Positions 19,741-59,700 of a stretch of DNA of 64,000 nucleotides are shown piece after piece. The DNA is from Zobellia nedashkovskayae. Its GTDB lineage: Bacteria; Bacteroidota; Bacteroidia; Flavobacteriales; Flavobacteriaceae. Both the position numbers and the translations under genes were made by a program. Position 1 is the first letter of the stretch. Each line of letters starts with the position of its first letter. The stretch is taken from the NCBI RefSeq assembly GCF_015330125.1, contig NZ_JADDXR010000002.1, positions 2,170,001-2,234,000 of the forward strand, given 5' to 3'. The notes under the pieces were generated by a model. It was not told where the DNA came from. It made no database searches and saw nothing but the letters and a program-made list of their open reading frames with translations.

Positions 19741-20321
19741 TTTTTTGAATTGAAACGAATTGCAAAGTAATGAACTGAGCAAAGCGTAAGGATTAAAACC
19801 ACTACATGAGTTACTTGCTAGCAATCAGGCATTAAATTGGTTGCTAGCGTTTTATTAATCAAAATAAGGACTGAAAATAGCCTTATCAATTCGCTAGTGC
19901 GAAGGGGTGTTGAAAAATAATACGAGGACAAAGATACCTCTTTATGAACCAGCACCGGGATGATAATAAATGAAAATAGATTGACTTGAACGGGAAAACC
20001 TAATTCTTTTTATTTGGAAGATGTATGAGATTGTTGAAGCTATTTCTTTTTCTGATTATTGCGGTAATACCTAATCTATATATTAACATATCGCGTTTTG
20101 AAGCAAGAAATCTTGTACGAGGTTATGACCTGAAGTGGTATTTGGTAAACCTAAAAGAGAGCAAAAGTATAATTATTTGACTATAAAAATAAGGCCTTAA
20201 CTTTTTAAAAAATAAAGTATTTGTGTTAAATGGTAATAAAAATTTAACGCATTGTTGTTTTTTGAATAAATTTCTTTACTTTTTCACACTCAAACCTTGA
20301 ATAAATGTCAATCTATTAAAT
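19741..20321. other. Gap between methyltransferase and fecI genes
   Basis: The 581-base gap contains one small secretory-type ORF at 20025-20180 (listed separately) and is otherwise AT-rich. It must carry the promoter for the sigma factor gene. A weak match is TTGTTG at 20252-20257 with TACTTTTT at 20277-20284, 19 bases apart, compared with the Bacteroidota consensus TTTG/TAnnTTTG. A four-codon ORF (ATG TCA ATC TAT TAA at 20305) precedes the sigma start. Confidence 0.35.
20025..20180 (+). CDS. Small hypothetical ORF with signal-like N-terminus
   Basis: An ATG at 20025 opens 51 codons ending at TGA 20178-20180. The product begins MRLLKLFLFLIIAVIPNLYI, a membrane or secretion segment, followed by a basic/polar tail ending in ESKSIII. 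It lies on the same strand as fecI, 141 bases upstream. No similarity was recognised and coding is uncertain; it could equally be a relic of a longer gene. Confidence 0.3.
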   Translation: MRLLKLFLFLIIAVIPNLYINISRFEARNLVRGYDLKWYLVNLKESKSIII

Positions 20322-20978
20322 TTGAATACTGATTTATTACATAGCGATAAAGAATATTTAAAGGAACGTGGCTCAGGTGTTTCAAAAAGTGATGCAAGCA
20401 GTTATGAATCTTCTGATTATCAACTTTGGCAAGAGTTCAAAAGGGGTAATGAAACTGCTTTTGCCACAATTTATAAGGATAATGTTCAGCGCCTATACAG
20501 TTATGGTATTAAATTGGTTCATGATAAAGGGTTGGTCAAAGATGCTATTCAAGACCTTTTTGTTGAAATTTGGGATGCAAGAGAGAAGCTGGGTGAGGTG
20601 CGCTCCATAAAATCTTATTTATACAAGTCAATTAGAAGAAAACTAATTTCCCAAACAGTAAAAAAAAGAAAGAGATCAAGTGCTAATTTTGAGTTGGAAA
20701 TTGTTCATAGAGAAACAAATTCTGCAGAAATTAACCTTATTGAAAAGCAACTTTTTGACGAAAAGCGAAACAAGTTGCTCAAAACGTTGGGCAAACTTAA
20801 TGACAAGCAAAGCGAAATTATACACTTAAAGTATTACGGTAATTTAACGTACAATGAAATTTCTGAAATAATGTCATTGGATAAAAAAGGTACTTACAAT
20901 CTAATGGCCCATACTATTAAACTTCTAAGACAACATTGGGTAACTCTGTGTCTAATTTTCATTTTTCCTATTTCTTAA
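20322..20978 (+). CDS. FecI-like ECF RNA polymerase sigma factor
   Basis: The 218-residue protein has sigma region 2 at about 45-110 (GNETAFATIYKDNVQRLYSY, then DAIQDLFVEIWDAREKLG) and region 4 at about 150-205 (LNDKQSEIIHLKYYGNLTYNEI, then IMSLDKKGTYNLMAHTIK). It should be released by the FecR-type protein encoded next and direct transcription of the SusCD operon. The only usable start before region 2 is TTG at 20322: the frame has no ATG until deep in region 4 and an upstream stop at 20298. ATG at 20305 is in another frame and ends after four codons. A non-ATG start may keep expression low. Confidence 0.9.
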   Translation: MNTDLLHSDKEYLKERGSGVSKSDASSYESSDYQLWQEFKRGNETAFATIYKDNVQRLYSYGIKLVHDKGLVKDAIQDLFVEIWDAREKLGEVRSIKSYLYKSIRRKLISQTVKKRKRSSANFELEIVHRETNSAEINLIEKQLFDEKRNKLLKTLGKLNDKQSEIIHLKYYGNLTYNEISEIMSLDKKGTYNLMAHTIKLLRQHWVTLCLIFIFPIS

Positions 20979-21060
20979 CAATTTCTTTCTGTTCTACACA
21001 ATTTTTTTAAATAAGAATAAAGATTCTAAGCCTGTAAATGCCTATTATCAGAGGTATTGT

Positions 21061-21104
21061 TAAATTTTACTTAAAAAAGGTATATTTTTTTTAAGTAAAA
21101 TTTA
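21061..21104. repeat. Perfect 18-bp AT-rich inverted repeat between fecI and fecR
   Basis: TAAATTTTACTTAAAAAA at 21061-21078 is exactly complementary to TTTTTTAAGTAAAATTTA at 21087-21104, separated by the eight bases GGTATATT. The dyad is 83 bases after the sigma gene and 57 before the anti-sigma gene. In RNA it would form a long A-U hairpin that could weaken readthrough from fecI into fecR; as DNA it could be a protein-binding site. It lacks the GC-rich stem of a classical terminator. Confidence 0.7.
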
Positions 21105-21161
21105 TGTTAATCCCCTCTTACTATATAGACAAGGAAAATATTAGATAGTCAATTGTAGGAA

Positions 21162-22364
21162 ATGAGGTATAATAACTATACAGAAGAGAATTTTATTGCA
21201 GATGAATACTTCCAGAAGTGGGTGTTAGGTTCTGATGAAATGTGTGATAATTTTTGGAGTAACTGGTTGGAAGACTACCCTCATAAATTAGAGACTGTAA
21301 AAAAGGCTCGAACGTTAGTGTTATTACTCAATACTGAGGAGAGTAAGCTTCCTGAAAAAGATTTTGACGCAATGTGGAGAAACATTGTAGAAAGAAGAGC
21401 AAACGAATCCAATTTAGCTATAAACCAAAGAAACTCCAAAAAAGGTATTATCTTAAAAGTAGCGGCTGTTTTTGTGGGTATTATGGTAACCACCCTAGCT
21501 GTCTATTATGCTAACACTAACCTTGCATCAACTACCGCCGCACCAGCTCAAATTACTTTAGAACTTGAAGATGGAACCCTCAAAATTTTGGATGAAGAGG
21601 CTTTTGGGGCTGTTACCAATGCTAATGGTAATTTGGTAGTACAACAACAACAGAACTTATTGAATTATGCAGAAAACGATGCGCCAAATCAAAAACTGGT
21701 GTACAATCAACTAACGGTGCCTTATGGGAAAAAGTTTCAGTTACAGCTTTCGGATGGTTCTCATGTGTTTCTCAACTCGGGCTCAAAGCTTAGATATCCT
21801 GTAAATTTTATAGAGGGAATGCCTAGAAATGTATACTTGGATGGTGAGGCTTATTTTTCGGTTGAAAAAGACACTGAAAGACCCTTTACAGTAGTGACCC
21901 ATGATATGGATACTAGAGTACTAGGTACGGAATTCAATGTTTCTAGTTACATGAATGAAAACAACACTTCTACTGTACTGGTCGAAGGGAGTGTAGTCGT
22001 TTTTAAATCTGATGAAAACGAAATGACCGAATTAGTAAAAATTAAGCCTGGCGAACGTGCGGTATTTGAAAACGATGAGATAGGTGTTAGTACCGTAAGC
22101 ATTGATAAATATATAGCATGGAAAGAAGATAAACTACTTTTTGAAGATGATCAGTTCTACTTAATATTAAATGAACTGGAGCGAAACTTTAATGTGACTA
22201 TAGAAAATAAATATGTGGCATTGGGCGACAAAAGATTCACAGGGTCTTTTGATGGAGAAACACTTGAGCAGATATTAAAAATCTGTAGTGAACATACTCC
22301 TTTTGACTACGCTATAAATGCAGATAAAATTACGATTACCAAAAACCAAGAGAGCCTAAATTAA
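21162..22364 (+). CDS. FecR family anti-sigma factor
   Basis: A 400-residue inner-membrane regulator. The first 85 residues form the cytoplasmic sigma-binding part (FQKWVLGSDEMCDNFWSNWL), a single membrane helix spans about 90-110 (GIILKVAAVFVGIMVTTLAV), and the periplasmic FecR domain follows at about 170-275 (LTVPYGKKFQLQLSDGSHVF, then VLGTEFNVSSYMNE). The C-terminal DUF4974-type domain (about 320-395, LNELERNFNVTIENKY) should contact the STN domain of the SusC-like receptor. Upon substrate binding it is expected to release the ECF sigma factor. The start ATG at 21162 fits the domain layout. Confidence 0.95.
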   Translation: MRYNNYTEENFIADEYFQKWVLGSDEMCDNFWSNWLEDYPHKLETVKKARTLVLLLNTEESKLPEKDFDAMWRNIVERRANESNLAINQRNSKKGIILKVAAVFVGIMVTTLAVYYANTNLASTTAAPAQITLELEDGTLKILDEEAFGAVTNANGNLVVQQQQNLLNYAENDAPNQKLVYNQLTVPYGKKFQLQLSDGSHVFLNSGSKLRYPVNFIEGMPRNVYLDGEAYFSVEKDTERPFTVVTHDMDTRVLGTEFNVSSYMNENNTSTVLVEGSVVVFKSDENEMTELVKIKPGERAVFENDEIGVSTVSIDKYIAWKEDKLLFEDDQFYLILNELERNFNVTIENKYVALGDKRFTGSFDGETLEQILKICSEHTPFDYAINADKITITKNQESLN

Positions 22365-22432
22365 CCTTTGGAGCATCAGTGTGGTGCCAAAAGTGACCAA
22401 ACCTAAAAATTAAATATGTGCATATGATTTGA

Positions 22433-22502
22433 ACAAAAAAAATCGGAAAGTGTTGCAGCACTTTCCGAAAATTTAAATGACCTAGTCGCTTAACAACTAA
22501 AA
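22433..22502 (-). ncRNA. Candidate cis-antisense small RNA to the susC leader
   Basis: A minus-strand -7 box, TAATTTTG (complement of 22509-22516), lies just ahead of a stretch that ends at a perfect minus-strand terminator (22435-22468). A transcript starting near 22502 would be about 70 nt and fully complementary to the susC 5' leader, covering the bases just upstream of its start codon. Bacteroides PULs are known to carry antisense RNAs of this kind between the anti-sigma gene and susC (DonS). No clear -33 element was found, so the RNA is predicted, not shown. Confidence 0.4.
22435..22468 (-). terminator. Rho-independent terminator pointing against susC
   Basis: TCGGAAAGTG (22443-22452) and CACTTTCCGA (22459-22468) form a perfect 10-bp stem with a six-base loop. 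On the minus strand the stem is followed by eight T (A-run at 22435-22442). On the plus strand the following bases are AAAATTTAAA, so it is not a plus-strand terminator. There is no minus-strand protein gene for it to terminate. Confidence 0.75.
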
Positions 22503-22515
22503 TCAATTCAAAATT

Positions 22516-25500
22516 ATGAAAAAACGAAGGAACACTCCTGGAGGTTGGAAGTATATTTTTCCAAAATTCGACTTAAAGATGAAATTATCGTTATTGTTCT
22601 TGTTTACCGCATTACTTCAGCTACAAGCTAATGTAGGATATGCCCAAAAAACCAAGATTTCTTTAGATCTTGACAACGTATCCGTGCTCAATGTTATTGC
22701 GGAAATAGAGTCAAAATCCGAATTTAAATTCTTTTATAGCAAAGAAGACCTTGAAGCAATTGGGTCTATTAGTATCAAAGCTAACAAAGAGAATATAGAT
22801 AAAATTCTACAACGAATTTTCTCTAAAGGCACTATCAAGTATAAGGTTCTAGAGAAGCAAATTATTCTAACCCCTTTAAAGGGTGAAGAAAAAAATGTAG
22901 ATGAGGGCAACTATGTAGACGGTCCAATTCAACAGCAATTTAAAGTTAGTGGTCAGGTCTATGATTCAAATGGCTTACCATTATCTGGGGCTAGTGTACT
23001 TGAAAAAGGTACGATTAACGGAGTTACTGTAAATTTTGATGGTGAGTTCGTTATTGAAGTAGGTAGTGCAGATGCTGTACTGGAGATATCCTATATTGGT
23101 TTTACCACCAAGGAAGTTCCTGTAGATGGCAAGGATGAAGTAGTAGTAACTTTAAAAGAAAATACTTCAGAATTAAAAGAGGTAATAGTTGTTGGTTACG
23201 GTACTCAGAAAAAGGTGAATTTAACCGCAGCAGTATCGCAAGTAGATGCTGAAGTTTTCAAAGATAGACCTACTGCTAATGCTGTACAATCTTTACAAGG
23301 TACGGTGCCTGGTTTGTTTATTACTAATTCTACAGCTGGGGGTGAGCCTGGTGCTGATTCTAATATCAACATTCGTGGTTACTTAACAAGTGGTGCAACT
23401 GGTGCTATAGGAGACAGCGGTCCTTTAGTACTTGTAGACGGAGTGCGTATGGAAATAAACGATATTAACCCACAAGATATTGAATCTGTCTCTGTACTTA
23501 AAGATGCCGCTGCCGCTGCCATATATGGCTCAAATGCCGCTTCAGGTGCTATTTTGGTGACCACTAAAAGTGGTAAAGCTTCAAATGGAAAGGCTAGAAT
23601 AAGCTATAGCTCAAATGTAGCTTTTTCATCCCCTACGTCATATCCAGATGCTGCGAGTCCTATTGACTTTGCTTATACTATTAATGATGCCCGTATTAAC
23701 AATGGTCAGGGAGTTTATTATGACGAGACCGACTTAGCCAATATAAGAGCTAATATGGCTAATCCAGGTAGTGCACCTTCTATAGAGAGCAATGCTACTG
23801 GGAACGCTTGGAATTATGGGACAATTGGTATCGAAGGTACGGGCGCAACGGACTGGGATGAGATTATTCTAAAAAAATCTGCGGTAAGAACAAAACATGA
23901 TTTAAGTATATCCGGTGGTACCGAAAAAGTGAACTATTATATTTCTGCGGGTGCTTATGATGAAGAGGGTTTACTAAAAGTAGGAGACGAATCTTTTCAG
24001 AGATACAATATAGATGCAAAATTCAGTGCACAAGCCAATGAATGGTTAACAGTAGAATTATATACTAAGTATTTAAAAAGTTTTACTGATTTTCCTTCAG
24101 AAACTGGTCAGGGAACGGATTTACGAAATAAAACCAGAGTTCTTGATTTAATTACTAAAATAAAACCTACACTACCACAATTCGATCCAATTTATGGTGA
24201 AGAATTATTACAACATACTTATTATCCATTTTGGGAGTTTCAACGTTTAAAGACTAGGACCGATCAAATTATTCTTGCACCTAAATTCATTATTCGACCC
24301 ACAGAGAATCTTACATTAAATGTAGATTTAAATTATAGAAGAAATAATGGCTTTAGGGAAGAGACTATTTTGGCGCATCAACAAGTTGTCCCAAATGGTC
24401 TTGTTGATAGAATTTCTCAACAACAAACGTCGTACTCACCAACAGTTTCTAGAACTGAATATTTCTCGCCAAATATCTATGCCAATTATGATAAAACTGT
24501 AAATAACCATAATTTTAATGTAACGGCAGGTTTTCAAAGCGAGATAACCGATGTTTATTCTCTCCAAGCTACAACAGATTATTTAATTACAAACGATATA
24601 GTTTCTCTCAGTGCTGCATTAGACGATGATCAAATAATTAATGACGAGATTATCCAGGACTTTACTACTGTAGGTTATTTTGGTAGGTTGAGATATAATT
24701 ATAAAGAAAAGTATCTTGCAGAGTTTACTTATAGAAGGGATGGCTCTTCTCGATTTGCACCAGGAAATCAATGGGTAGGATTACCTAGTTTTTCCGTTGG
24801 TTACAACATTGCCAAAGAAAATTTTTGGCCAATTGATAAAATCAACACTTTTAAATTAAGAGGGTCTTATGGTTCTTTAGGAAATCAGAATGTAGAACTC
24901 TACAGATATCTATCTACTATTCCTATAAATACACCTGGAACTAGCTTCTTATTTAATGGGCAACAGGGTATTTTTTCTTCAACACCCGACCTAGCAAGTC
25001 AAGGTTTAACTTGGGAAACTGTGACCACAACAGATATAGGTTTAGATTTTGGTGCTTTTGACAATAAGTTGAACATGGCTTTTTCTTGGTACAGAATAGA
25101 CACCGAGGACATGACCGGTCCAGGTTTAGATTTGCCATCACAGCTTGGGGTTACACCTCCCTTTCGTAATGTTGGAACATCTAGAGTGCAAGGTTTTGAC
25201 CTAGAAGTAACATGGCGACAGCAATTAGGAGATTTTGGATATAGTATTAGAGGTGTTCTTAATGATTATAAGCAGACGATTGTAGACTACCCTAATGAAG
25301 GTAGTATTTTGAACAGTTTCTTCGAAGGTCAAGATCTTGGAGCTATTTATGGTTATGAAACTGATGGTTTGTTTCAAAGCAACGAAGAAGCTGACGCATA
25401 CACAGCAGGAGTAGATCAATCCTTTATTAACGGAAATGCTTATGAAGCTGGAGATTTAAGATATGTCGATCAAAACGGTGATGGTCTTATAGATAACGGT

Positions 25501-26103
25501 AATAATGCAGATGGCGATAGTGGAGACCTTAAAGTTATAGGTAATAGTACACCGCGTTTCCAATACGGATTTACAGTGGGTATGAATTATAAAAATTTTG
25601 ATTTCAATGCCTTTTTACAAGGAGTAGGAAAACGTGACGTAAATTTAGTTACAGGAAATTCTCAAGGATTTAGAGGTCCATCTAATGGTCCCTTCCATGC
25701 TTTTGTTTGGGAAGGCCATTTAGATTATTGGAGACCAGAAGATACGACTAATCCGTTAGGTGCCAATACAGATGCTTATTTTCCAAAACCTTATTTAAAT
25801 GGTGGAGGTAGAACCAATAAAAACTACAATCAAAATACAACGCACTTTATACAAAGCGGTGCCTATGCTAGATTAAAAAGTTTACAGATAGGATATACCC
25901 TCCCTTCAGATTTAACTAATAAATTTAATATTAGCAATATAAGATTGTACGTAACAGGTGAAAATTTATTTACTATTTCTGATTTGATCTTTTTTGATCC
26001 TGAGACGGTGAGGGATTTTGCTGGTAATAGTGACCTAGTAGGTAGCGCATCATCCTATCCATTATCCAAAATAGTGTCGTTTGGAGCAAATATCTCATTT
26101 TAA
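22516..26103 (+). CDS. SusC/RagA TonB-dependent outer membrane receptor with STN domain
   Basis: A 1195-residue glycan importer. Order: signal segment (about 20-45), STN signalling domain (about 50-118, ISLDLDNVSVLNVIAEIESK), CarboxypepD-like beta-sandwich (about 140-215, KVSGQVYDSNGLPLSGASV), plug (about 222-345, EVIVVGYGTQKKVNLTAAVS, then SVLKDAAAAAIYGSNAASGA) and the 22-stranded barrel ending in an aromatic-rich strand (KIVSFGANISF). The STN domain is the contact for the FecR protein encoded just upstream, so this receptor both imports the glycan and triggers sigma release. The SusD partner starts 15 bases downstream. The signal segment is preceded by a basic 20-residue extension, common in STN-type SusC proteins. 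Confidence 0.96.
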   Translation: MKKRRNTPGGWKYIFPKFDLKMKLSLLFLFTALLQLQANVGYAQKTKISLDLDNVSVLNVIAEIESKSEFKFFYSKEDLEAIGSISIKANKENIDKILQRIFSKGTIKYKVLEKQIILTPLKGEEKNVDEGNYVDGPIQQQFKVSGQVYDSNGLPLSGASVLEKGTINGVTVNFDGEFVIEVGSADAVLEISYIGFTTKEVPVDGKDEVVVTLKENTSELKEVIVVGYGTQKKVNLTAAVSQVDAEVFKDRPTANAVQSLQGTVPGLFITNSTAGGEPGADSNINIRGYLTSGATGAIGDSGPLVLVDGVRMEINDINPQDIESVSVLKDAAAAAIYGSNAASGAILVTTKSGKASNGKARISYSSNVAFSSPTSYPDAASPIDFAYTINDARINNGQGVYYDETDLANIRANMANPGSAPSIESNATGNAWNYGTIGIEGTGATDWDEIILKKSAVRTKHDLSISGGTEKVNYYISAGAYDEEGLLKVGDESFQRYNIDAKFSAQANEWLTVELYTKYLKSFTDFPSETGQGTDLRNKTRVLDLITKIKPTLPQFDPIYGEELLQHTYYPFWEFQRLKTRTDQIILAPKFIIRPTENLTLNVDLNYRRNNGFREETILAHQQVVPNGLVDRISQQQTSYSPTVSRTEYFSPNIYANYDKTVNNHNFNVTAGFQSEITDVYSLQATTDYLITNDIVSLSAALDDDQIINDEIIQDFTTVGYFGRLRYNYKEKYLAEFTYRRDGSSRFAPGNQWVGLPSFSVGYNIAKENFWPIDKINTFKLRGSYGSLGNQNVELYRYLSTIPINTPGTSFLFNGQQGIFSSTPDLASQGLTWETVTTTDIGLDFGAFDNKLNMAFSWYRIDTEDMTGPGLDLPSQLGVTPPFRNVGTSRVQGFDLEVTWRQQLGDFGYSIRGVLNDYKQTIVDYPNEGSILNSFFEGQDLGAIYGYETDGLFQSNEEADAYTAGVDQSFINGNAYEAGDLRYVDQNGDGLIDNGNNADGDSGDLKVIGNSTPRFQYGFTVGMNYKNFDFNAFLQGVGKRDVNLVTGNSQGFRGPSNGPFHAFVWEGHLDYWRPEDTTNPLGANTDAYFPKPYLNGGGRTNKNYNQNTTHFIQSGAYARLKSLQIGYTLPSDLTNKFNISNIRLYVTGENLFTISDLIFFDPETVRDFAGNSDLVGSASSYPLSKIVSFGANISF

Positions 26104-26118
26104 AAAAAAAGAATAATT

Positions 26119-27843
26119 ATGAAAAATATATATAAACTACTTATTCTAAGTGCAATATTTTCTTTAACAGCTTGTGAAGATTACTTAGATAAGCCGCCTT
26201 TAGATGAAATTTCCGAAGTTACTTTTTATCAAAATTCTAATGACCTTAGAACAGCTGTAAATGGGTTTTATAATGACTTACCGGGCTGGCAAGGTCTTAA
26301 TGTTGGTTTCAACATTTTACCTGATAGTAGTACGGATATGGGGACGACTGAAGCCCCGAGCAATGGACTCAGCGGATTAGCTTATGATTTGCCAACCTCT
26401 GGTTCCGGCTTTGGCGCGGGCACCAATTGGAGTTGGGATGAGGTGAGGGAAATAAACTTTCTTATAGATCGTTTAGATCAACCTATATCTATTGATGATA
26501 CGGACCAAGCTTTAATTGACCAATTTTCTGGAGAAGCCTATTTTTTTAGAGCCTACTATTATTTTCTTCAATTAACAAGGTATGGAGATGTGCCAATATT
26601 CCCTAACAGTTTTACCGCTGACGATGAGGAATTTGTTTTTGCAGCTAGAGACCCAAGAAACGAAGTTGCGGATTTTATTCTTTCAGATTTAGACACTGCA
26701 ATTGGTCTAATGCTATCTTTTTCAGAAATTCCTGATGCTCCAAGAGTAAGTAGAGAAGCTGCGCAACTGTTTAAAGCAACAGTGGCTTTGTATGAAGGTA
26801 CTTGGGAAAAATACCATAACAACACCCCTTTAGGTGTTGCAGGATCAGATGGTAGTCGTTTTCTTGAAATAGCAGCAGATGCAGCGCAAGATGTAATGAA
26901 TAGCGGTGTATTTTCTTTACACAACGACTATGCAAGTTTATTTAATCAAGTTGGTTTGGCTAACAATACAGAGGTATTGTTATGGAAAGATTATGATGCG
27001 GTTTCATTAGGCCTGGCAAATGTGTTACAGATATCATGGCCCAATAGATGTGGCTACACTAAATTTGCGGTTGATAGTTATTTGGCTGCGGATGGTTTAC
27101 CTACTGCTTTAAGTGATGTTGATGGAAGTAATTTAGACTTAAACACTATTGAAATTGGCAGAGATCCAAGATTAGCTGAATTAATTATGGTTCCTGGCGA
27201 CGTGGTGGAAATACGAAATGGAGAGACTTTACTTTGGGAATTTCCAGACTTTGGTGATGCAAACACGGGCAATACAGGTTATGAAAGTCAGAAGTACAGA
27301 AACGTAAACTATGACGGTGATGTTGATGATTTTACTCAGAATACGTCAAGAATTATTATGCGTTACGCAGAAGCATTGTTAATTTTTGCAGAAGCGAAAG
27401 CTGAATTAGGTACCATTACGCAATCAGATTTAGATATATCTATAAATCTATTGCGTGACCGTGCTGGTATGCCCGGTATTACATTGTCCAACATTGCTGT
27501 AGATCCTAACTGGCCAGATTATGGCTACAATTTAACTCCTATTCAATATGAAGTTAGAAGAGAGCGTTCTGTTGAACTTATGGCAGAAGGATTTAGAACA
27601 AACGACTTAAGGAGATGGAGAGCACATGCATTATTTGATGGTGATCAACCAAGAGGTGCATTTTATAACGATGGTATAGTGAACACTGTATCTGTCGAAA
27701 CTCCCTTGGATAGCGATGGCTTTTTATTACCGTTTAGTAATTTTGGAAACTACAACTTTGATCCAACTAGAGGGTATTTAAGCCCTATACCAACGGACGA
27801 ACTTATTTTAAACCCTAACCTAGAACAGACTCCAGGTTGGTAA
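26119..27843 (+). CDS. SusD/RagB family glycan-binding lipoprotein
   Basis: A 574-residue outer-membrane lipoprotein: signal peptide MKNIYKLLILSAIFSLTAC with the lipidated Cys at about 19, followed by acidic EDYLDKPP typical of SusD surface export. The helical TPR-like scaffold is seen in DQALIDQFSGEAYFFRAYYY and the RagB/SusD C-terminal domain in IIMRYAEALLIFAEAKAELG and RRERSVELMAEGFRTNDLRR. It forms the lid of the SusC transporter and captures oligosaccharide at the cell surface. A strong terminator follows 58 bases downstream, separating susCD from the enzyme genes. Confidence 0.96.
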   Translation: MKNIYKLLILSAIFSLTACEDYLDKPPLDEISEVTFYQNSNDLRTAVNGFYNDLPGWQGLNVGFNILPDSSTDMGTTEAPSNGLSGLAYDLPTSGSGFGAGTNWSWDEVREINFLIDRLDQPISIDDTDQALIDQFSGEAYFFRAYYYFLQLTRYGDVPIFPNSFTADDEEFVFAARDPRNEVADFILSDLDTAIGLMLSFSEIPDAPRVSREAAQLFKATVALYEGTWEKYHNNTPLGVAGSDGSRFLEIAADAAQDVMNSGVFSLHNDYASLFNQVGLANNTEVLLWKDYDAVSLGLANVLQISWPNRCGYTKFAVDSYLAADGLPTALSDVDGSNLDLNTIEIGRDPRLAELIMVPGDVVEIRNGETLLWEFPDFGDANTGNTGYESQKYRNVNYDGDVDDFTQNTSRIIMRYAEALLIFAEAKAELGTITQSDLDISINLLRDRAGMPGITLSNIAVDPNWPDYGYNLTPIQYEVRRERSVELMAEGFRTNDLRRWRAHALFDGDQPRGAFYNDGIVNTVSVETPLDSDGFLLPFSNFGNYNFDPTRGYLSPIPTDELILNPNLEQTPGW

Positions 27844-27901
27844 ATAGTACAAAATAAAAATGTTAGTTAGTTCCCTCGGTTTGTTAGTTTATTAAGTAGA
27901 G

Positions 27902-27928
27902 AAAGGGAGGTTGTTCCTCCCTTTTTTT
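27902..27928 (+). terminator. Rho-independent terminator after susD
   Basis: AAAGGGAGG (27902-27910) pairs perfectly with CCTCCCTTT (27916-27924) across the loop TTGTT, followed by a run of T to 27928. It sits 58 bases after the susD stop and should end or attenuate the susCD transcript, leaving the downstream enzyme genes to readthrough or their own promoter in 27929-28079. Confidence 0.85.
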
Positions 27929-28079
27929 ATAACTTTTACTTGAGTTTATTTGCCTTGCACCAAGAGTGTTTAAGTTACTTATTACTTTCCTTTAAAGATA
28001 ACGGAGATATTAATTGGATAGTGAATAATTTGGCACCTAAGTAGGGTTTAAGAACTAATGAAAAGACAATCTATCATTA

Positions 28080-29726
28080 ATGAAAAATTTGATAATGCTG
28101 AAAAAAATGTATTACCGAAAGGGTAAAGTTAACCAAGGAGCTCTATTTTTTAATCTGTTTTATTTAACACTTCTGTTTGCAAGTTGCCAAACAAAAGTTG
28201 ACGATAAAAAAACGGAACAGCCGCCGAATATCATTTTTATAATGAGCGATGACCATGCGTACCAAGCCATAAGTGCTTACGGTCATGGTTTAAATAATAC
28301 CCCTAATATTGATAGAATTGCAAACGAAGGTGCATTGTTCACCAAAGGATATGTCAACAATTCAATATGTGCACCAAGTAGGGCGGCAATGCTCACCGGT
28401 AAACATAGCCACATGAACGGTAAGGTAGATAATATATTACCTTTTGATTGGAGTCAAGATAATTTTGCCAAACACTTACAAACAGCGGGTTATGAAACTG
28501 CTTTGATAGGTAAAATTCATTTAGATGGTATCCCACAAGGTTTTGATTATTCAAATGTGCTACCAGGGCAAGGTCAATATTATTCACCTGAGTTTATTGA
28601 GAACGGAATCAAAAAAACGTATCAAGGCTATATCACTCAAGTAACCACAGATTTAACCTTAGATTGGTTAGATAAGAAACGAGATGAGAAAAAACCTTTT
28701 ATGGTAATGTACCATCAAAAAGCACCGCACAGAACATGGATGCCAGAAGAAAAGTACTTTACTTTATTTGACGATACTCAATTTACACCACCGGATAATT
28801 TTTTTGATGACTATGAAGGCAGGCCAGCTGCCGCGGACCAAGAAATGGGTATCTACAAAGACATGGATTTGGTGTATGATTTAAAAATGCTCGATAAGGA
28901 AAAAGAAATTAAAACTCCTTATCGTGGAATGTTCCAAAGGCAGTATGACCGAATGACTGATGAACAAAAAAAGGCTTGGGATGCGTATTACGATCCAATC
29001 ATTAAGGATTTTAAATCAAAGAATTTAGAGGGTAAGGATTTAGCGCTTTGGAAATATCAAAGGTATATGCAAGATTACTTACGTACAATTCAATCTGTTG
29101 ATGATGGCGTTGGTGAAGTTTTAGACTATTTGAAGGAAAACGGATTAGAAGAAAATACGATTGTAGTATATACTTCTGATCAAGGTTTTTATTTGGGAGA
29201 GCATGGTTGGTTCGATAAGCGTTTTATGTACGAAGAGTCCTTTAGAACTCCAATTTTAATGAAGTATCCAAAGGAGATAAAAGCAGGTTCAAAAATCAAC
29301 AACTTGATTCAGAATATTGATTTTGCCCCAACATTCTTGGACTATGCAAACGTTGAAATACCGAAAGACATACAAGGAGAATCGTTCCGAAAATTAGTTT
29401 CTGGTGAAGCTTCAGAATGGCGCGATGCTATTTACTATACGTATTATGAATATCCTGCGGAACATAAAGTAAAACGGCATTACGGCATTAGGACAGATAG
29501 GTATAAGCTCATTCATTTCTACTATGATATTGATGTATGGGAATTGTATGATTTAGAACAAGATCCCACAGAAATGAAAAATCTATATGATAACCCTGAA
29601 TATGCATCGGTTCAAGAAAATATGCATAAACAGCTTCAAGATTTACGTAAAAAATATGGGGATAGTGATGAATTGACCCAACAGAATTTAGAGCGGTTTT
29701 TAGATGCGAAGGGAATAGAGAAATGA
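28080..29726 (+). CDS. Family S1 sulfatase, GlcNAc-6-sulfatase-like (S1_11-like), lipoprotein
   Basis: A 548-residue lipoprotein (lipobox LLFASC at about residue 36) that should remove a sulfate ester from a sugar. The formylglycine motif CAPSRAAMLTGK has the modifiable Cys and catalytic Arg; metal ligands are in FIMSDDHAYQ and YTSDQGFYLGEHGWFDKR. The stretch QGFDYSNVLPGQGQYYSPEF is characteristic of the S1_11 group, where N-acetylglucosamine-6-O-sulfatases of Bacteroides belong (from memory, not a search). The usual GKWHL is GKIHL here, keeping Lys and His. It opens the enzyme operon after the terminator. A paralogue lies two genes downstream. Confidence 0.9.
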   Translation: MKNLIMLKKMYYRKGKVNQGALFFNLFYLTLLFASCQTKVDDKKTEQPPNIIFIMSDDHAYQAISAYGHGLNNTPNIDRIANEGALFTKGYVNNSICAPSRAAMLTGKHSHMNGKVDNILPFDWSQDNFAKHLQTAGYETALIGKIHLDGIPQGFDYSNVLPGQGQYYSPEFIENGIKKTYQGYITQVTTDLTLDWLDKKRDEKKPFMVMYHQKAPHRTWMPEEKYFTLFDDTQFTPPDNFFDDYEGRPAAADQEMGIYKDMDLVYDLKMLDKEKEIKTPYRGMFQRQYDRMTDEQKKAWDAYYDPIIKDFKSKNLEGKDLALWKYQRYMQDYLRTIQSVDDGVGEVLDYLKENGLEENTIVVYTSDQGFYLGEHGWFDKRFMYEESFRTPILMKYPKEIKAGSKINNLIQNIDFAPTFLDYANVEIPKDIQGESFRKLVSGEASEWRDAIYYTYYEYPAEHKVKRHYGIRTDRYKLIHFYYDIDVWELYDLEQDPTEMKNLYDNPEYASVQENMHKQLQDLRKKYGDSDELTQQNLERFLDAKGIEK

Positions 29727-29756
29727 GGAAAACGATAAAAGTTGAATCATAAATTA

Positions 29757-31256
29757 ATGAAGTACAAAATCAACTCAAACTATTACAGGCTGTTATTAGC
29801 TATTACACTCTTTGTAGGATGTAAGGCTGAAACCAAAACTGTTGCAAAATCGGATAAGCCTAATATACTTTTTTTATTTACTGATGACCAACGCTATACA
29901 TCCGTTGGTAGTTTAGGAATAGAAGAGGTCTTGACCCCTGCTTTAGATGGTTTAATGGAACAAGGCACCTCGTTTACCAATTCTTATATTTTGGGAGCAC
30001 CCCATGGTGCTGTTTGTTCGCCTAGTAGGGCAATGTTAATGACGGGTCGTCATTATTTTAATCTAGAACCTAATGTATATGCGCAGTTCTCAGTTGCCGA
30101 TAGTTTAAAAGGAGTCTCAAAGCATTTGACCTTTCCAGAATATTTTAAGGCTAACGGATACCATACTTTCGCTACTGGAAAACAACATAACGGCGTGCAA
30201 TGGGTAGAGAAGGGGTTTGATGAAGGTAAATCATTGTATTTAGGAGGAATGACTAAACATTTTGGTACAAAGGTCAAAGACTTCAATAAGGAAAGAGGCT
30301 GGTCTAAACCTTATATCAATGAAGAGAAATTTTCTAGTGAACTTTTTGCTGATGCAGCTATCGATTTCTTAGAAGATGATAAATCTGATAGTCCTTTTTT
30401 AATATACGTAGCCTTTACGGCACCGCATGATCCCAGGACCGCTCCAAAAGAATACCATGCTATGTATTTGGAGGAAGAAACCAAAGTTCCTGAGAATTTT
30501 ATGGAAGGGCACCCTTTTCCCATTGCCGATATGAAAATACGCGATGAAAAGTTAGCTGCTTTTCCAAGAACCAAAAAGGAGGTTAAGAAGCATATATCAG
30601 ATTATCATGCTATGATAACCGCTACAGATACTCAAATTGAAAGAGTATTAGAAGCATTGAAAGCTTCAGGAAAAGCGGATAATACGATTATAGTTTTTTC
30701 TGGCGATAACGGCCTTGCAGTGGGGCAACATGGTTTGTTGGGCAAACAAAGCGTTTATGAACATAGTATAAAAGTTCCATTAATTTTTGTAGGCCCAGGA
30801 ATACCAAAAAATCAAAAAAGAGAGGCGTTCGCGTATCTGCATGATGTATTTCCTACACTTTGCGGATTAGTAGATATTGACATACCAGAATCTATTCAAA
30901 CAGAAAATCTAAGTCCAATTTTATCTGGTGATAAAAAGCAGGTCAGACCATCAATGCTCTATGCTTATAATGCATGGCCTGGTGATAAAAAGCCAACACA
31001 AAGAGGGGCACATCGAGCAGTTCGTAAAGGAGATTATAAACTAATCGTTAGCAGTAAAGATGGTAAAGTTACATATCAGCTTTTCAATATAAAAAACGAC
31101 CCTTGGGAAATGGAAAATCTAATTTCATATCTAGAGTTCAAAAATAAGAAATCTGATTTACTGATTGAACTGAAATCATTAATGAAAAAAACCGGGGATC
31201 CAGCTGATTTAAATGAAGAAATGTTCGGTTTATATAGCTTGGAACAATCAGAGTAA
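29757..31256 (+). CDS. Family S1 sulfatase (choline-sulfatase-like group), lipoprotein
   Basis: About 499 residues from ATG 29757 (a TTG at 29742 in the same frame is less likely). Lipobox LFVGC at about residue 22 predicts a lipoprotein. The formylglycine motif is CSPSRAMLMTGR; metal and catalytic sites are seen in FLFTDDQRY, TGKQHNG and VFSGDNGLAVGQHGLLGKQS. The spacing and the VGQHGLLGKQSVYEHSIKVP block resemble choline/sugar sulfatases that act in exo mode on oligosaccharides. The sulfate position cannot be assigned by eye. It lies 30 bases after the previous sulfatase and 18 before the GH29 gene. Confidence 0.9.
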   Translation: MKYKINSNYYRLLLAITLFVGCKAETKTVAKSDKPNILFLFTDDQRYTSVGSLGIEEVLTPALDGLMEQGTSFTNSYILGAPHGAVCSPSRAMLMTGRHYFNLEPNVYAQFSVADSLKGVSKHLTFPEYFKANGYHTFATGKQHNGVQWVEKGFDEGKSLYLGGMTKHFGTKVKDFNKERGWSKPYINEEKFSSELFADAAIDFLEDDKSDSPFLIYVAFTAPHDPRTAPKEYHAMYLEEETKVPENFMEGHPFPIADMKIRDEKLAAFPRTKKEVKKHISDYHAMITATDTQIERVLEALKASGKADNTIIVFSGDNGLAVGQHGLLGKQSVYEHSIKVPLIFVGPGIPKNQKREAFAYLHDVFPTLCGLVDIDIPESIQTENLSPILSGDKKQVRPSMLYAYNAWPGDKKPTQRGAHRAVRKGDYKLIVSSKDGKVTYQLFNIKNDPWEMENLISYLEFKNKKSDLLIELKSLMKKTGDPADLNEEMFGLYSLEQSE

Positions 31257-31274
31257 TAAGTAGCGAGAAATGGC

Positions 31275-32909
31275 ATGATAATGCAAACGAAATCATTTTT
31301 AAGAAGAGGTATTCTGAGTTTTTTTACGCTTTGTGTATTTTATACACAAGCTCAAGAGGTTAATAAGAATTTAGAATGGGATGAGTTGGCCAAATCTTAT
31401 TCGTGTCCAGAATGGTTCAGGGATGCTAAATTCGGAATTTGGTTTCATTGGGGTCCACAAAGTGTACCTGAGCAAGGTGGGGGATGGTATGCTAGGCATA
31501 TGTACATGAAAGATGTGGGCAAACAGGTGTTTGGTAAAATGGCAAATCCATATCATTTAAAAACATTCGGGCATCCTTCGGTATTCGGTTTTAAAGATAT
31601 TATCAATTCTTGGAAAGCAGAGAATTTTAATGCAGAAGAGCTTATTGATTTTTCCAAGAATAACGGAGCCAAATATATTGTAGCATTAGCCAATCATCAT
31701 GACCATTTTGATTTGTTCAATTCTACATATCACCCATGGAACTCGTTTCAGGTCGGTCCAAAGAAAGATATCATTAAAGAGTTTGCGGATGCCTCTAGAG
31801 CGGCCAATTTAAAATTTGGGGTAACCAGTCATGATAACAGACATTTAGAATGGTGGAAACCGGTTTTTGGGGCAGATGAAAGTGGCGAATATAAAGGAAT
31901 TCCCTACGATGGTAGGCTCACAAAAGAAGATGGAAAAGGCAAATGGTGGGATGGGCTAGATCCAGCAGATTTGTACGGTCCTATTCCTGAAAAAAGAACT
32001 GCTGAGGTAATTGAGGCCATCAAAGAAAACTGGGAAAAACGACATTTAGAATTGGTAAATACGTATAAACCTGACCTTTTGTATTATGATGGAGGTAAAT
32101 TTTCATACGGCGAACACGGTAAAGAAGTAAGCCGAAGGTTATATAACAATAGCCTGTTACAAAATGGAAGTATTGAAGCTGTAATGTTGCTAAAAGGACG
32201 GGTTCCCGGAACGGTTAACGAAGTGGAAAGTGGTGGAAGTAATACCTTAAGAAAAGAGCCGTGGCAATCTGAAATTACTTTCACCGATTGGTTCTATAAA
32301 AAAGATAGACACCTTACCCATAATGCAAGAACCATTTTAGAAATGTTGATAGATGCAGTAAGTAAAAATGGAAATCTCCTTTTAAACATAGAATTACATC
32401 CTGATGGAACCATCCCTAGTGAACAAAGAGTGATTATAGATATTGTGGGAGATTGGTTAAAAACTAACGGAGAAGCCATTTACGAAACTAGACCATGGAA
32501 CGTGTATGGAGACGGTGTTAGTGTAAGAGGAGGCAGCTCACTTATAGCAAACGGTGAGATAAGAAATGTTGATGAGAATGCGGCAACCATGAAGCATAAA
32601 GGGGAACATTACAACCAAAGAACAACGGCTTCCCCCGAGTATGCTAATGATGAAGTACGTTTTACTACCAACGACAATGTGTTTTACATCATCTCGCTCA
32701 ATCCCAAGGAGGGAAAATTACTAATTCCCACTCTAGGGCTTGGCAAGTCAACAAATCCAGGGAAGTTAAAATCACTGATTCGTCTTGATACCAACACAAA
32801 GGTAGAATTTATGCAATCAGAGGTAGGGGCAATGGTAAATGTATCCGTCATTAATGGTAGAAGTTACCCTATTGTATATAAAGCAGAGTTTAAAAATGTT
32901 ACCTATTAA
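31275..32909 (+). CDS. GH29 alpha-L-fucosidase (first copy)
   Basis: A 544-residue secreted enzyme (signal peptide ending VFYTQAQ) that should hydrolyse terminal alpha-L-fucose with retention. GH29 hallmarks: FGIWFHWGPQSVPEQ near residue 50, ANHHDHFDLFNSTYHPWNSF near 140, and the nucleophile Asp in DLLYYDGGKF near 268. The C-terminal beta domain includes GNLLLNIELHPDGTIP. It has an insert after the HWG motif (YARHMYMKDVGKQVFGKM) that the second GH29 of this locus lacks, so the two copies probably differ in linkage or in tolerance of sulfated fucose. Located between two sulfatase genes. Confidence 0.93.
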   Translation: MIMQTKSFLRRGILSFFTLCVFYTQAQEVNKNLEWDELAKSYSCPEWFRDAKFGIWFHWGPQSVPEQGGGWYARHMYMKDVGKQVFGKMANPYHLKTFGHPSVFGFKDIINSWKAENFNAEELIDFSKNNGAKYIVALANHHDHFDLFNSTYHPWNSFQVGPKKDIIKEFADASRAANLKFGVTSHDNRHLEWWKPVFGADESGEYKGIPYDGRLTKEDGKGKWWDGLDPADLYGPIPEKRTAEVIEAIKENWEKRHLELVNTYKPDLLYYDGGKFSYGEHGKEVSRRLYNNSLLQNGSIEAVMLLKGRVPGTVNEVESGGSNTLRKEPWQSEITFTDWFYKKDRHLTHNARTILEMLIDAVSKNGNLLLNIELHPDGTIPSEQRVIIDIVGDWLKTNGEAIYETRPWNVYGDGVSVRGGSSLIANGEIRNVDENAATMKHKGEHYNQRTTASPEYANDEVRFTTNDNVFYIISLNPKEGKLLIPTLGLGKSTNPGKLKSLIRLDTNTKVEFMQSEVGAMVNVSVINGRSYPIVYKAEFKNVTY

Positions 32910-32934
32910 ACCACAAACCAAAACAGCATACCCT

Positions 32935-34536
32935 ATGAACTATAGACTTGTTATGATAATATTAAAAAAGGCTATTTTTTTGTGTACGATAACACTACTA
33001 ATTTCGTCGTGTAAAGAAGATAAAAAAAGTATAGTGGCGGAAAAAACCCAACCTAATATTCTTTTTATAATGGCCGACGACCATACGTCTCAAGCTTGGG
33101 GGATTTATGGTGGTATTTTAGAAGATTATGTACATACGCCCAACATAAAAAGGTTGGCAAAGGAGGGCACGGTACTTGAAAATTGCTTGGTTTCAAATTC
33201 CATTTGCACTCCTAGTCGAGCAACAATTCTTACCGGGCAGTATAGCCACGTTAATGGCGTGACAACCTTAGGTGCCGGATTGTCTCCTCAATATAACAAC
33301 ATTGCCAAAGAGCTTCAAAAAGGAGGGTATCAAACATCGGTAATTGGTAAATGGCATCTTAAACAAGAGCCTGCAGGTTTTGATTACTATTGTGTGCTTC
33401 CAGGTCAAGGTGAGTATTGGAATCCCGTAATGAAAACCAAAGAAAACTGGGAAGATTACTATGCTGGAGGAAAACAATATGAAGGATTTAGCACAGACTT
33501 AATAGCGGATAAAACTATTGATTGGATAGAGAACAGGGATAAGGATAAACCCTTTATGGCCATGTGCCACTTTAAAGCTACCCACGAACCTTTTGATTAC
33601 CCGGAAAGATTTAGCGATTTAAACAAAGATGTAGATATTCCAGTACCAGCTTCAATTTATGATAAAGGCGCAGAAACTACAGGAAGGTCTTTCAAAGGAC
33701 AGTCTATTGATAATCTAAAAAAACGCTATTTAGAGGCCACGGCAGACCCATCATTGCGAAAAGATTTTATGAATTATCCTGATTTGCCATTTTCGGTAGA
33801 CGGACTATCGAACGATGAAGCACGGTACAAGACCTATCAGAAATACGTTAAAGATTTTATGCGCTGTGGGGCTGCCGCCGATGATAATATTGGTAAGCTT
33901 TTAGATTATCTGGAAGAGTCCGGTCTTGCAGAGAATACAGTGGTCATTTACACTGCGGATCAAGGTTATTTCTTAGGGGAACATGGCTGGTTTGACAAGC
34001 GGTTAATTTTTGAAGAATCTATTCACATGCCTTTCGTAATCAGGTATCCAAAAGAAATAAGGGCTGGAGCAAGAAACAAGGACTTAATAGAGAATGCAGA
34101 TTTCTCGGCACTTTTTGCAGATTATGCCGGTATAGATTATCCGGAAACAATGCAAGGCCGCAGTTTTCGGGAAAATTTAAAGGGCAATACTCCGGATGAT
34201 TGGAGGACGTATGGCTACTACCGGTATTGGGACCATTCCAAAGATCGCCCAGGTCATTTTGGTATTAGGGGCGAACGCTATAAGCTTGCATTTTTCTACG
34301 GAAATGGATTAAAAGTTAACGAGTATACAGCTGAAGAGCAACCTACTCAATATTGGGATTTCTATGATTTGCAAGAAGACCCGAATGAATTGCACAATGC
34401 ATATGAAGATGAAAAATATCAGGATATCATCACAGAGATGAAAACTGAGATTCTAGCTCAAAGGGAAGCATTGGGAGATACAGATAAGGAGAATGCCGAA
34501 GTACTTGAAATTATCAAAGCGTATTGGAATGAATAA
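32935..34536 (+). CDS. Family S1 sulfatase, S1_11-like paralogue, surface lipoprotein
   Basis: About 533 residues from ATG 32935; the frame is open back to 32839, overlapping GH29, but only this start gives a proper lipoprotein signal (LLISSC). The residues after the Cys, KEDKK, resemble the Bacteroidota lipoprotein export signal, so it is likely surface exposed. Formylglycine motif CTPSRATILTGQ, GKWHL, and YTADQGYFLGEHGWFDKR are intact. FDYYCVLPGQGEYWNP mirrors the first sulfatase of the operon, marking them as paralogues, but the substrate-facing segments differ (THEPFDYPERF here, PHRTWMPEEKY there). Probable HexNAc-6-sulfatase or a related exo-activity. Confidence 0.9.
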   Translation: MNYRLVMIILKKAIFLCTITLLISSCKEDKKSIVAEKTQPNILFIMADDHTSQAWGIYGGILEDYVHTPNIKRLAKEGTVLENCLVSNSICTPSRATILTGQYSHVNGVTTLGAGLSPQYNNIAKELQKGGYQTSVIGKWHLKQEPAGFDYYCVLPGQGEYWNPVMKTKENWEDYYAGGKQYEGFSTDLIADKTIDWIENRDKDKPFMAMCHFKATHEPFDYPERFSDLNKDVDIPVPASIYDKGAETTGRSFKGQSIDNLKKRYLEATADPSLRKDFMNYPDLPFSVDGLSNDEARYKTYQKYVKDFMRCGAAADDNIGKLLDYLEESGLAENTVVIYTADQGYFLGEHGWFDKRLIFEESIHMPFVIRYPKEIRAGARNKDLIENADFSALFADYAGIDYPETMQGRSFRENLKGNTPDDWRTYGYYRYWDHSKDRPGHFGIRGERYKLAFFYGNGLKVNEYTAEEQPTQYWDFYDLQEDPNELHNAYEDEKYQDIITEMKTEILAQREALGDTDKENAEVLEIIKAYWNE

Positions 34537-56794: not shown

Positions 56795-59700
56795 TTAAAA
56801 TTTAACCCTTAAACCAAAAGTGAAACTTCTTGCGTCTGGATAGCCAGTGTCGGCATTTGAAAAGGTACTTCTAATATTAACTTCAGGACTATAGCCGATA
56901 TAATCGGTATTGGTGAACAAATTGGTTCCGGTAACATAAAACCTAATTTGCTCAAGGTTTAAATCGGAAGTTATAGCATTGGGCAATGTGTACCCTAAAC
57001 TAACCGTCCTTAATCTTACGTAAGACGCATCTCTTACAGCCAATGCATTTAAATATAGGGGAGTACTGTCAAAATCAGGTCTAGGAAATGATGTGGACGG
57101 ATTCTCGGGGGTATAATAATCTACCTTTACACCATTTAGCTTTCCAGAAAGAGTGCCGCCGTTATTAAAATCAGACAAAAAGGGATTTACTTTGTTAGTA
57201 CCTTCAACAGCGTAGAAATCTACAAACAAATCAAAACCTTTATACGCTATAGTAGTGGATAACGAACCGAACCATTCTGGATTGGATTTTTTATATACTC
57301 GATCCTCAAGTGTTATCTTTCCATCCGGTATTCCAGTTTCATTGCCATTAGCATCTACCCCGTTAGTATCTTTGATTTTAATATCGCCTGGTCTAAGGTT
57401 TTCCTGAGGTAACGCCGATTCGGGGTTTGCCTGTGGAGCATTGGCAAAATCTTCTCCTTCTTGCCAGATGCCATCAAACTCATATTGATAAATAACTCCA
57501 ACGGGTTGTCCTACGTAATACCCATAGCTATCATCTGTCGTAACCGGGTTATTGTCTCCATCATTATAGAGTTCCAGTAATTTGTTTTTGTTCGTGGACC
57601 AATTAGTTGAAACCGACCATTTAAATTTATCGTTATCTACAATATTGGCCGTCAGATTTAATTCCACACCGGTATTTTGGAGTTCCCCTGCATTAAAGAA
57701 GGTGTATTGGTATCCTGTGGTAGAAGGCACCCCTCGGCGGAGCAATAAATCCGTTGTTCTGGCATCGTAATAATCAATATTACCTGTTAAAAGCCTATTG
57801 AACAGCGAAAAATCAAGGCCTAGGTTTAGTGTTGTTATTCTTTCGAATTTCAAATCGGTATTCGGAAGAATTACAGAAGGTGAGTAGCCTGAAAAGGATT
57901 CGCCGTCAAAAGTATAGTTTTGCCCATCTGCGGTAAATAAAGAAGTATAAGCACGCCCAAGATCATTTACTAAGGAACCGTAACTAGCCCTGAATTTTAG
58001 TTCTTGAACAGAATTTACATCTTGTAAAAAACCCTCATTATGTATTTTCCAAGCGAAGGAAGCTGCGGGATTAAAGCTCCATTTATTATCTTGTGAATTA
58101 ACGGAAGCCCCATCGGCCCTAGCCGTTGCAGTTAATAGATATTTATTGTTGAGGTTGTATCTGGCCCTAGTCATAAAGGAAGCCAACCGTTGCTGGTTTT
58201 TGTCGCGTTCAACAGTTACGTTACCTACAGCATTTGAAATACCGTCATAACTTAAACTTTCATTGGTAAAACCTTGTCCTTCGGTAAATGTTCTACTGTA
58301 CTTATTTTCTTGTGAAGATTGAACGAAAGTCAAATTAAGCCTATTATTTTCATTAAAGGCCTTGTCATAGGTTAATATATTTTCTATCAAATAAGACTCT
58401 ATCAAACTATTGTCAATTCTAGCTATACCATTGACATCATCGCCGGCGGAACTTAATGAAGATTGATATTGTCCTCTTTCCGATGTTCTTCTGGTAAGGT
58501 TGGTCTTTAATTGATATTGTAGGTCTTTGGTAATCTGCCAAATAGGAGTAATATTTATTACATAATCATTTCCCTTTTCATCATTATCTTGCTCCCTTAA
58601 ATTCCAGATAGGGTTTACTGCGGACAGTTCCTCGCCACTTGGAAATTGTGTTAGGTTACCATCTTCATCATAGGCCCTGCCCAAAGGTGAAGTTGTGATT
58701 ACATTTACGTTTGCAGCCCTTTCGGTATCATCGTTCAAGATGTTTAGATCAAAATTTACTGAAAACTTATCACTGATTTTTTGATCTACATTTAAACGTA
58801 ACGTTTTTCTAGTATAATTGGAAGTTGGAATAATACCTTCTTCTTTAAAATAATTAACGCTACCGAAAACCTTGGTAAATTCAGTGCCGCCACTTACGCT
58901 AACCGACTGACTGTTTACATAACCGCTTTTTACCAACTCATCTTCCCAGTTAATGAATTCGTTATTAGCTAAAGAGGCCAATTCTAATTCAGAAAAGATA
59001 TCCTCTTCGTTAGGGTAAGATCCATCTGCAATATTAGACCTAGCTGCTTCTCTTCTTAATTGGGCAAACTCTTGTCCGTTATAGACGTCAAAATTACGCT
59101 CTATGGATTTTGATGATACAAACCCGTGATAATTTACACTGACTTTACCGCTTTTGCCTCTCTTGGTAGTAATTAGAACTACACCATTGGCCCCTCTTGA
59201 GCCGTAAATAGCTTGTGCAGATGCATCTTTTAGGAACTCCATTGATTCTATATCATCAGAATCTATATCTTCAATTCCTCCATCTCTGATGATGCCATCT
59301 ACAACATAAATGGCACTAACGCTACCCTCAATAGAACCTTGGCCCCTAAAGATGATATTTGATGTGCCTCCAGGTCTTAAAGTACCTCCTCCTACATCTA
59401 CTTGTAAGCCAGCTATTCTACCTCTAAGCATTTCATTGACATCTGCTGTCGGTGTCAATATGGCTTTTTCAATATCCGTTGTGGCTACCGCGTTGACTAC
59501 ATCACTTTTCTTCTGAGTACCATAACCAACAACAACGACTTCTTCCAGTTGACTGGAATCCTCCTGTAAAGTAATAGTTATAGGACCCTTGGAAATAGGC
59601 ACATCTGCATTGGCATAACCAATATATGAAGCGGTTAAGGTAGTGGCATCTAAAGGAGCATTCAAGATGAAATTACCATCAAAATCGGTAGATGTACCCT

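Follow-up and report, generated by a model that had tools for sequence, protein, structure and literature searches.

A minus-strand antisense RNA very probably covers the susC leader of a PUL in Zobellia nedashkovskayae, to judge from sequence signals that recur beside many related susC genes. The best explanation for these signals, to which we give a probability of roughly 0.72, is a small antisense RNA gene lying between fecR and susC and repressing susC as part of a threshold switch. Its promoter box, near-fixed length, terminator and two stem-loops, and the strand on which they lie, are supported by the comparison of relatives; from the analogy with known systems we infer that the RNA would repress susC in cis.

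Genomic context of the candidate RNA gene

The analysis was conducted on a 64-kb window (positions 2,170,001-2,234,000 of the contig) of the 4.94-Mb Z. nedashkovskayae genome. The PUL in this window reads, on the plus strand, from a FecI-type ECF sigma factor (20322-20978; Pfam Sigma70_r2 and Sigma70_r4_2) through a FecR anti-sigma factor (21162-22364; PF04773 and PF16344) to a SusC-type TonB-dependent transporter with an N-terminal STN-like domain (22516-26103; Pfam), which is the presumed target of the RNA, and a SusD protein (26119-27843; Pfam SusD_RagB), followed by sulfatases and glycosidases. The STN match, within the first 140 residues of SusC, has an E-value of 5.9e-5 and falls under Pfam's curated cut-off. 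Among the PUL enzymes at 28080-52891, part of which were examined with Pfam, are sulfatases, an alpha-L-fucosidase and members of GH95, GH92 and GH20, a combination reminiscent of glycoprotein or sulfated fucose-rich glycans; DonS is likewise described at an N-glycan PUL (PMC11697453). An orthologous locus is present in Pseudozobellia thermophila, of the same family (L188).

The gap between fecR and susC measures 151 nt. No minus-strand ORF of at least 250 aa was found in 19824-53323 and none of at least 120 aa in 19824-34000, in agreement with the preliminary description, which had seen no minus-strand protein gene in need of a terminator there. The minus strand of the window also carries, at 56795-60016 and 60175-63006, a second SusC-type gene lacking an STN match and a neighbour with Y_Y_Y, Reg_prop and GerE domains. 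This second SusC-type gene serves as an internal negative control, with no box at its first ATG and no covariance-model match.

Sequence signals in the fecR-susC gap

On the plus strand the gap displays A8 at 22435-22442, then TCGGAAAGTG-TTGCAG-CACTTTCCGA (22443-22468) and then AAATTTAA; since the A8 precedes the hairpin and no T run follows it, the terminator faces the minus strand. Read on that strand, a perfect 10-bp stem with a 6-nt loop (22443-22468), whose pairs covary in relatives, is followed by a T8 tail (22442-22435) that relatives keep on the same strand, and this succession of a G+C-containing stem and a T run is that of an intrinsic terminator. The -7 box TAATTTTG occupies 22516-22509 of the minus strand, where it overlaps the susC ATG; it presents the TAnnTTTG motif of the Bacteroidota primary sigma factor at the predicted promoter, and the same motif is seen at the susC starts of relatives. 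According to PMC9723704, the primary sigma factor of Flavobacterium psychrophilum recognises TAnnTTTG at -12 to -5, which here would set the 5' end of the RNA at 22504 and, with the 3' end in the T run, predicts a minus-strand transcript of 70-72 nt (22433-22504). The perfect stem, the eight T on the minus strand only, the box on the susC start codon and an RNA of about 70 nt had all been put forward in the preliminary description, and each was recovered at the same positions or, for the RNA, at the same predicted length.

A strict scan for terminators (perfect stem of 9 bp or more with a minimum of 4 G-C pairs, and 7 or more T in 8 tail bases) returned two in the 64 kb, where 60 shuffles averaged 0.017. 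Besides the terminator in the gap, the window has a single one of comparable strength, which lies on the plus strand at 27902-27924, directly after susD and before the sulfatase genes, and may mark the end or the attenuation of the susCD message. A looser scan of 20000-26000 found 2 terminators where 3.6 were expected, and TAnnTTTG on its own matched the window 75 times for 88.5 expected, with no excess over chance in either case. Given that the box alone does not rise above chance, the window by itself is no proof of an RNA, and it is the comparison with relatives that carries the case.

The predicted 72-nt antisense RNA folds at -22.4 kcal/mol (z -4.8 versus shuffles), with a 5' stem-loop at 22479-22504 of the minus strand, a stretch that also folds on the antisense strand in relatives. 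Its complement folds at -18.1 kcal/mol (z -5.5), and the isolated hairpin of this locus is marginally more stable on the mRNA strand (-16.1 kcal/mol) than on the antisense strand (-14.7 kcal/mol). Because the stem is perfect on both strands, the wobble test described below is silent at this locus.

Conservation and spacing in FecR-downstream gaps

Conservation of the hairpin and T run in related loci had been named beforehand as the test that could refute the proposal, together with a search of other flavobacterial fecR-susC gaps. The proposal withstood this test. Both orthologous gaps (L011 and L012, with FecR proteins 67% and 63% identical) keep the hairpin, the T run and the box. They also retain a short inverted repeat, GCATCA/TGGTGC, found at 22373-22387 directly 3' of the fecR stop. 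More broadly, a strand-neutral stem search located the hairpin in 77 of 108 gaps 3' of FecR homologues, the relatives being sampled among the matches listed, and under the criteria used did not find it in the other 31. This search scores G.U and A.C alike and hence can introduce no strand preference. The 108 gaps comprise 29 loci and 79 of 80 further stretches picked from among the FecR matches listed (L110 had no downstream ORF); L001 and L004, which are the window again, as well as L007, L009 and L034-L039, were left out. The identity of the downstream ORF as SusC was checked for part of the 108 gaps, and the gaps share ancestry, so that counts over them are not independent. An initial pass, made with uncorrected start codons, gave a hairpin at -40 to -62 that beat all 20 shuffles in 65 of 106 gaps.

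The position of the hairpin is informative. Over the 77 gaps, and with the search restricted to -100 to -25 from the ATG, its near end lies 50.0 +/- 3.6 nt from the ATG and 54.9 +/- 33.2 nt from the fecR stop. The hairpin is thus anchored to the ATG and not to fecR, as expected for an RNA of near-fixed length started at the ATG. At the window locus the terminator hairpin falls 47-73 nt upstream of the susC ATG. In the 77 relatives the distance from box end to tail end is 71-93 nt, the RNA being about 4 nt shorter. As far as these sequence comparisons go, the arrangement is not special to this PUL, but is met again at many susC genes of the family that are linked to FecR.

These data bear on the possibility that antisense transcription takes place here and the RNA as such has no role, either because transcription alone matters or because the terminator blocks read-through into fecR. 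The antisense unit does cover a stretch where the sense promoter could lie, and there are gaps in which the fecR stop is immediately followed by the hairpin (L018, L027). A bare roadblock, however, needs neither a fixed length nor a structured, strand-specific 5' stem-loop, and both are found. Removal of 20 near-duplicates from the 77 hairpins left 57 non-redundant relatives, in which the 5' segment between box and terminator folds with z below -2 on the antisense strand in 41 cases and on the mRNA strand in 9 (mean z -2.56 versus -0.70). Wobbles in the 5' stem are G.U on the antisense strand by 76:5, against 220:68 in shuffles (p 2e-4). A 5' stem-loop that is specific to one strand argues that the RNA itself matters, beyond transcription across the promoter, and we therefore consider an antisense unit devoid of RNA function improbable, at something like one chance in a handful.

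Promoter box versus translation-start context

The start-codon motif that we read as a promoter box could instead be a context for translation initiation, since A at -3 and -6 is reported to enhance initiation in Flavobacterium johnsoniae (PMC6847099); such a context could explain part of the excess of the motif. The complement of the box on the ATG, CAAANNTATG, is indeed also present in 13 of the 40 gaps that lacked a hairpin in the first pass, with YAAANNTATG in 21 of the 40, and the CAAANNTA motif is still seen in 9 of 29 gaps without a hairpin in the 108-gap analysis. In that analysis, and in the named-SusC, class-wide, out-of-sample and second-order hairpin analyses reported below, a box-bearing in-frame ATG was preferred as the start, which favours the box. 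The comparison with ordinary starts was made on first ATGs with no box preference, the controls being the first ATG of 268 ORFs of at least 200 aa, drawn from the window and from 400 kb of this genome. Here YAAANNTATG occurs in 58 of 65 hairpin-bearing gaps against 5 of 268 control starts, and CAAANNTATG in 32 of 65 against 2 of 268. Likewise, YAAANNTATG is found in just one of 43 SusC genes matched only from residue 107 or later.

Further evidence comes from a second order, sampled as 30 FecR loci in genomes of one family (f55). The CAAANNTA motif appears at 21 of the 30 starts, against 1 of 31 starts of the upstream ORFs of the same loci. It does so in four registers to the ATG (-7, -8, -9 and -3), a count in which the starts are assumed to be first ATGs of ORFs and the box-bearing one is preferred among the first two. 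A motif that keeps its sequence and shifts its register to the ATG is hardly a translation signal, and we regard a pure translation context as quite unlikely. No -33 TTG element stood clearly above background upstream of the box (present in 13 of 50, control windows giving 1 to 10 of 50), and a FecI-dependent sense promoter of susC, looked for by eye only, was not found.

Strand polarity of the hairpin

The hairpin could instead be a plus-strand RNA element, be it a structure of the susC mRNA leader or a terminator of fecI-fecR. The stem at the window locus does fold on the plus strand as well, with the stability given above and a leader z of -5.2. Across the 57 non-redundant hairpins, by contrast, the evidence points to the antisense strand. 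At least five T occur in the 8 bases after the stem in 55 of the 57 on the antisense strand and in one on the mRNA strand, and the hairpin is more stable as antisense in 50. Of the wobble pairs in the alignment, 73 read as G.U on the antisense strand and 4 do so on the mRNA strand. Taken relative by relative, wobbles favour the antisense strand in 47 and neither strand in 10; none favours the mRNA strand. For individually found stems, the ratio of antisense G.U to A.C is 69:2, compared to 382:159 in composition shuffles (Fisher p 8e-8, a guide only, since the sequences are related). The 5' segment, as seen above, also folds mainly as antisense. A plus-strand element accordingly strikes us as very unlikely. 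In 27 of 57 relatives one stem pair (columns 12-31 of alignment A2) is a G.U on the antisense strand, as if this wobble were retained in order to leave the mRNA leader open.

The stem itself is under evident structural constraint, with 95.6% of cells paired, 11 of 12 pairs changing on both sides and 88 cells so changed, versus 15.9 in shuffles of the 57-hairpin alignment. A DNA site for a regulator such as FecI or a dimeric repressor would suit an inverted repeat of partly conserved sequence beside a regulated start, but its arms would not vary with compensation and a palindrome would have no strand preference, when wobble polarity and T tail both do, which makes this option scarcely credible. 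The plus-strand leader element, the DNA palindrome and the translation context were all rejected, on strand, compensation and control-start tests. Jointly, the wobble polarity, the fixed spacing to the ATG and the box on the start codon indicate a minus-strand RNA.

Covariance-model search and phylogenetic distribution

A covariance model of hairpin and tail (43 positions), trained on antisense-strand stems, was used to search further genomes. In the genome of Z. nedashkovskayae four matches at E up to 0.013 all lie opposite box-bearing susC-like starts, and the sixth match, a weak one (E 0.46, L145), is located within an ORF. Across the family, 38 of 199 genomes gave a match at E up to 1e-4. 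Eight of these had contributed training sequences, and the best match was inspected in 22 of the other 30. All 22 out-of-sample matches, in as many genomes, lie upstream of a susC-like start, as judged from the N-terminus, and come after a FecR-sized ORF (376-413 codons); YAAANNTATG is present at 19 of the 22 starts. One more out-of-sample match of the same kind, again at a susC-like start, is L146. The wobble count among out-of-sample matches, 27:0, is not an independent strand test, given the antisense-strand training of the model; the independent tests are the individually found stems and the second-order wobble counts.

Outside the family, model matches are mostly not at susC: of 13 in other genomes, four are opposite a box-bearing start (L146 and L157, in a genome of the same family, and L147 and L158, in one genome of another family) and nine are not. 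The specificity of the 43-position model is hence confined to low E. In 40 relatives, with up to 11 matches in one of them, the model gave 64 matches at E up to 0.01, of which 53 fall within 400 nt of a FecR end, for a set of 71 FecR ends taken from among the matches listed. Eleven matches remain. Five of them lie at box-bearing starts of SusC-like genes (L141, L267, L269, L270 and L276), L271 is at a box-bearing start, L272 and L274 are 32 and 133 nt from boxless starts, and L268, L273 and L275 have no start nearby. The SusC-like gene with hairpin, T run and box at L141 (G000:C2:3152424-3152466) belongs to the Z. nedashkovskayae genome itself; no FecR was found in the 3 kb examined, and a second hairpin sits between terminator and start. 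SusC-like genes with hairpin, T run and box were likewise seen at L267, L269, L270 and L276, in four relatives.

In the second-order sample, hairpins found without the model are present at 18 of the 30 FecR loci. Their wobbles favour the antisense strand by 27:0, and 15 of the 18 have a plus-strand A run of at least 5 in 8, with no plus-strand T run. Named SusC genes provide a complementary view: of 80 loci, 66 were analysed. Where the match starts at residue 43 or earlier, so that the STN region is present, 12 of 16 loci carry the hairpin; where it starts only at residue 107 or later, 2 of 43 do. Seven loci matched from residues 71-97 were set aside, with the box in five, the hairpin in none and one without ATG. 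The early-matched loci with a hairpin include Prolixibacter, Mangrovibacterium, Tamlana, Cellulophaga, Flavobacterium soli and Pedobacter. Across the class, a sample of 28 FecR loci gave four with the box in the form searched, six with a hairpin and two with the two together. These class-wide counts make the arrangement common, yet far from universal with FecR, and on sequence grounds it extends to some of the loci sampled from a second order and to Prolixibacteraceae.

Proposed mechanism and relation to known antisense RNAs

The small antisense RNA gene that we favour would operate as follows. The primary sigma factor would start minus-strand transcription from the TAnnTTTG box on the susC start codon, yielding an RNA of about 70 nt that crosses the susC leader, adopts two stem-loops and stops at the intrinsic terminator. 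Without glycan, the RNA would pair with the susC leader, beginning some 12 nt upstream of the ATG, and this pairing, together with antisense transcription over the same stretch, would limit leaky expression of susC. Once FecI is released by glycan, strong sense transcription would titrate the RNA and collide with its transcription, creating a threshold switch.

DonS and the PUL-associated cis-antisense RNAs of Bacteroides were reportedly the subject of work by Cao et al. in 2016 (J Bacteriol 198:2410). Accounts of this group in PMC7366714 and PMC10994844 mention DonS and 32 PUL-associated antisense RNAs, and the former describes RNAs of 78-128 nt opposite a susC homologue and a primary-sigma promoter motif in 52% of B. 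thetaiotaomicron cis-antisense candidates. The predicted RNA resembles DonS, as described there, in position and size, being a short RNA encoded antisense to the 5' part of a susC homologue, and would act in the manner of the Bacteroides DonS-type RNAs, to which it would belong by mode of action. A promoter and a terminator of its own, as in the DonS type, are indicated here by sequence signals, among which no clear -33 element was found. It differs in being found in Flavobacteriaceae and other groups and in its predicted length of about 70 nt, versus the 78-128 nt reported. The box on the start codon and the wobble polarity are features of the present data, DonS being known to us by description only.

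A second point of reference is FopS, which is described as acting at the translation start region of susC mRNAs and as having a single-stranded 5' stretch and a terminator hairpin; FopS-10, bound beside the start codon of a susC message, blocks translation in Bacteroides (PMC11697453). In the same account, which treats FopS and GibS with RbpB, FopS is multicopy, addresses several PUL messages and is mostly not antisense, unlike the present candidate. No RRM_1 (RbpB-like) match was obtained in this genome at E up to 0.001, unlike the Bacteroides control, which makes an RbpB-like partner unlikely. The candidate is also akin to the Flavo-1 RNA motif, named for the Flavobacteriaceae (PMC9723704), in being a widespread structured RNA candidate of this family. 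Rfam release 15 nonetheless has no family at gathering score in the window, and of the six weak matches at E up to 10 in 22350-22600, all to unrelated families, none is Flavo-1. A literature search, mostly without subscription papers, found no report of PUL antisense RNAs outside Bacteroides.

The presence of the same arrangement beside susC in many relatives suggests a widespread RNA brake on sugar use, of the Bacteroides kind. Taking all observations together, it is about an even bet that we are looking at one ancestral structured antisense RNA gene, its promoter fused to the susC start codon, built into the FecI/FecR-STN-SusC transducer operons of several Bacteroidota orders. The RNA threshold would then be standard in such operons and no speciality of Bacteroides, and the selection that keeps the two stem-loops of the free RNA would argue that it acts as RNA, perhaps also on sister susC messages. 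The sequence rule that emerges is a simple one, a box on the ATG and a terminator about 50 nt upstream of it, and can be used to find such RNAs. If they are expressed, PUL-rich species would offer several test cases per genome, and antisense control would be a general feature of sigma/anti-sigma-regulated glycan uptake in the Bacteroidota.
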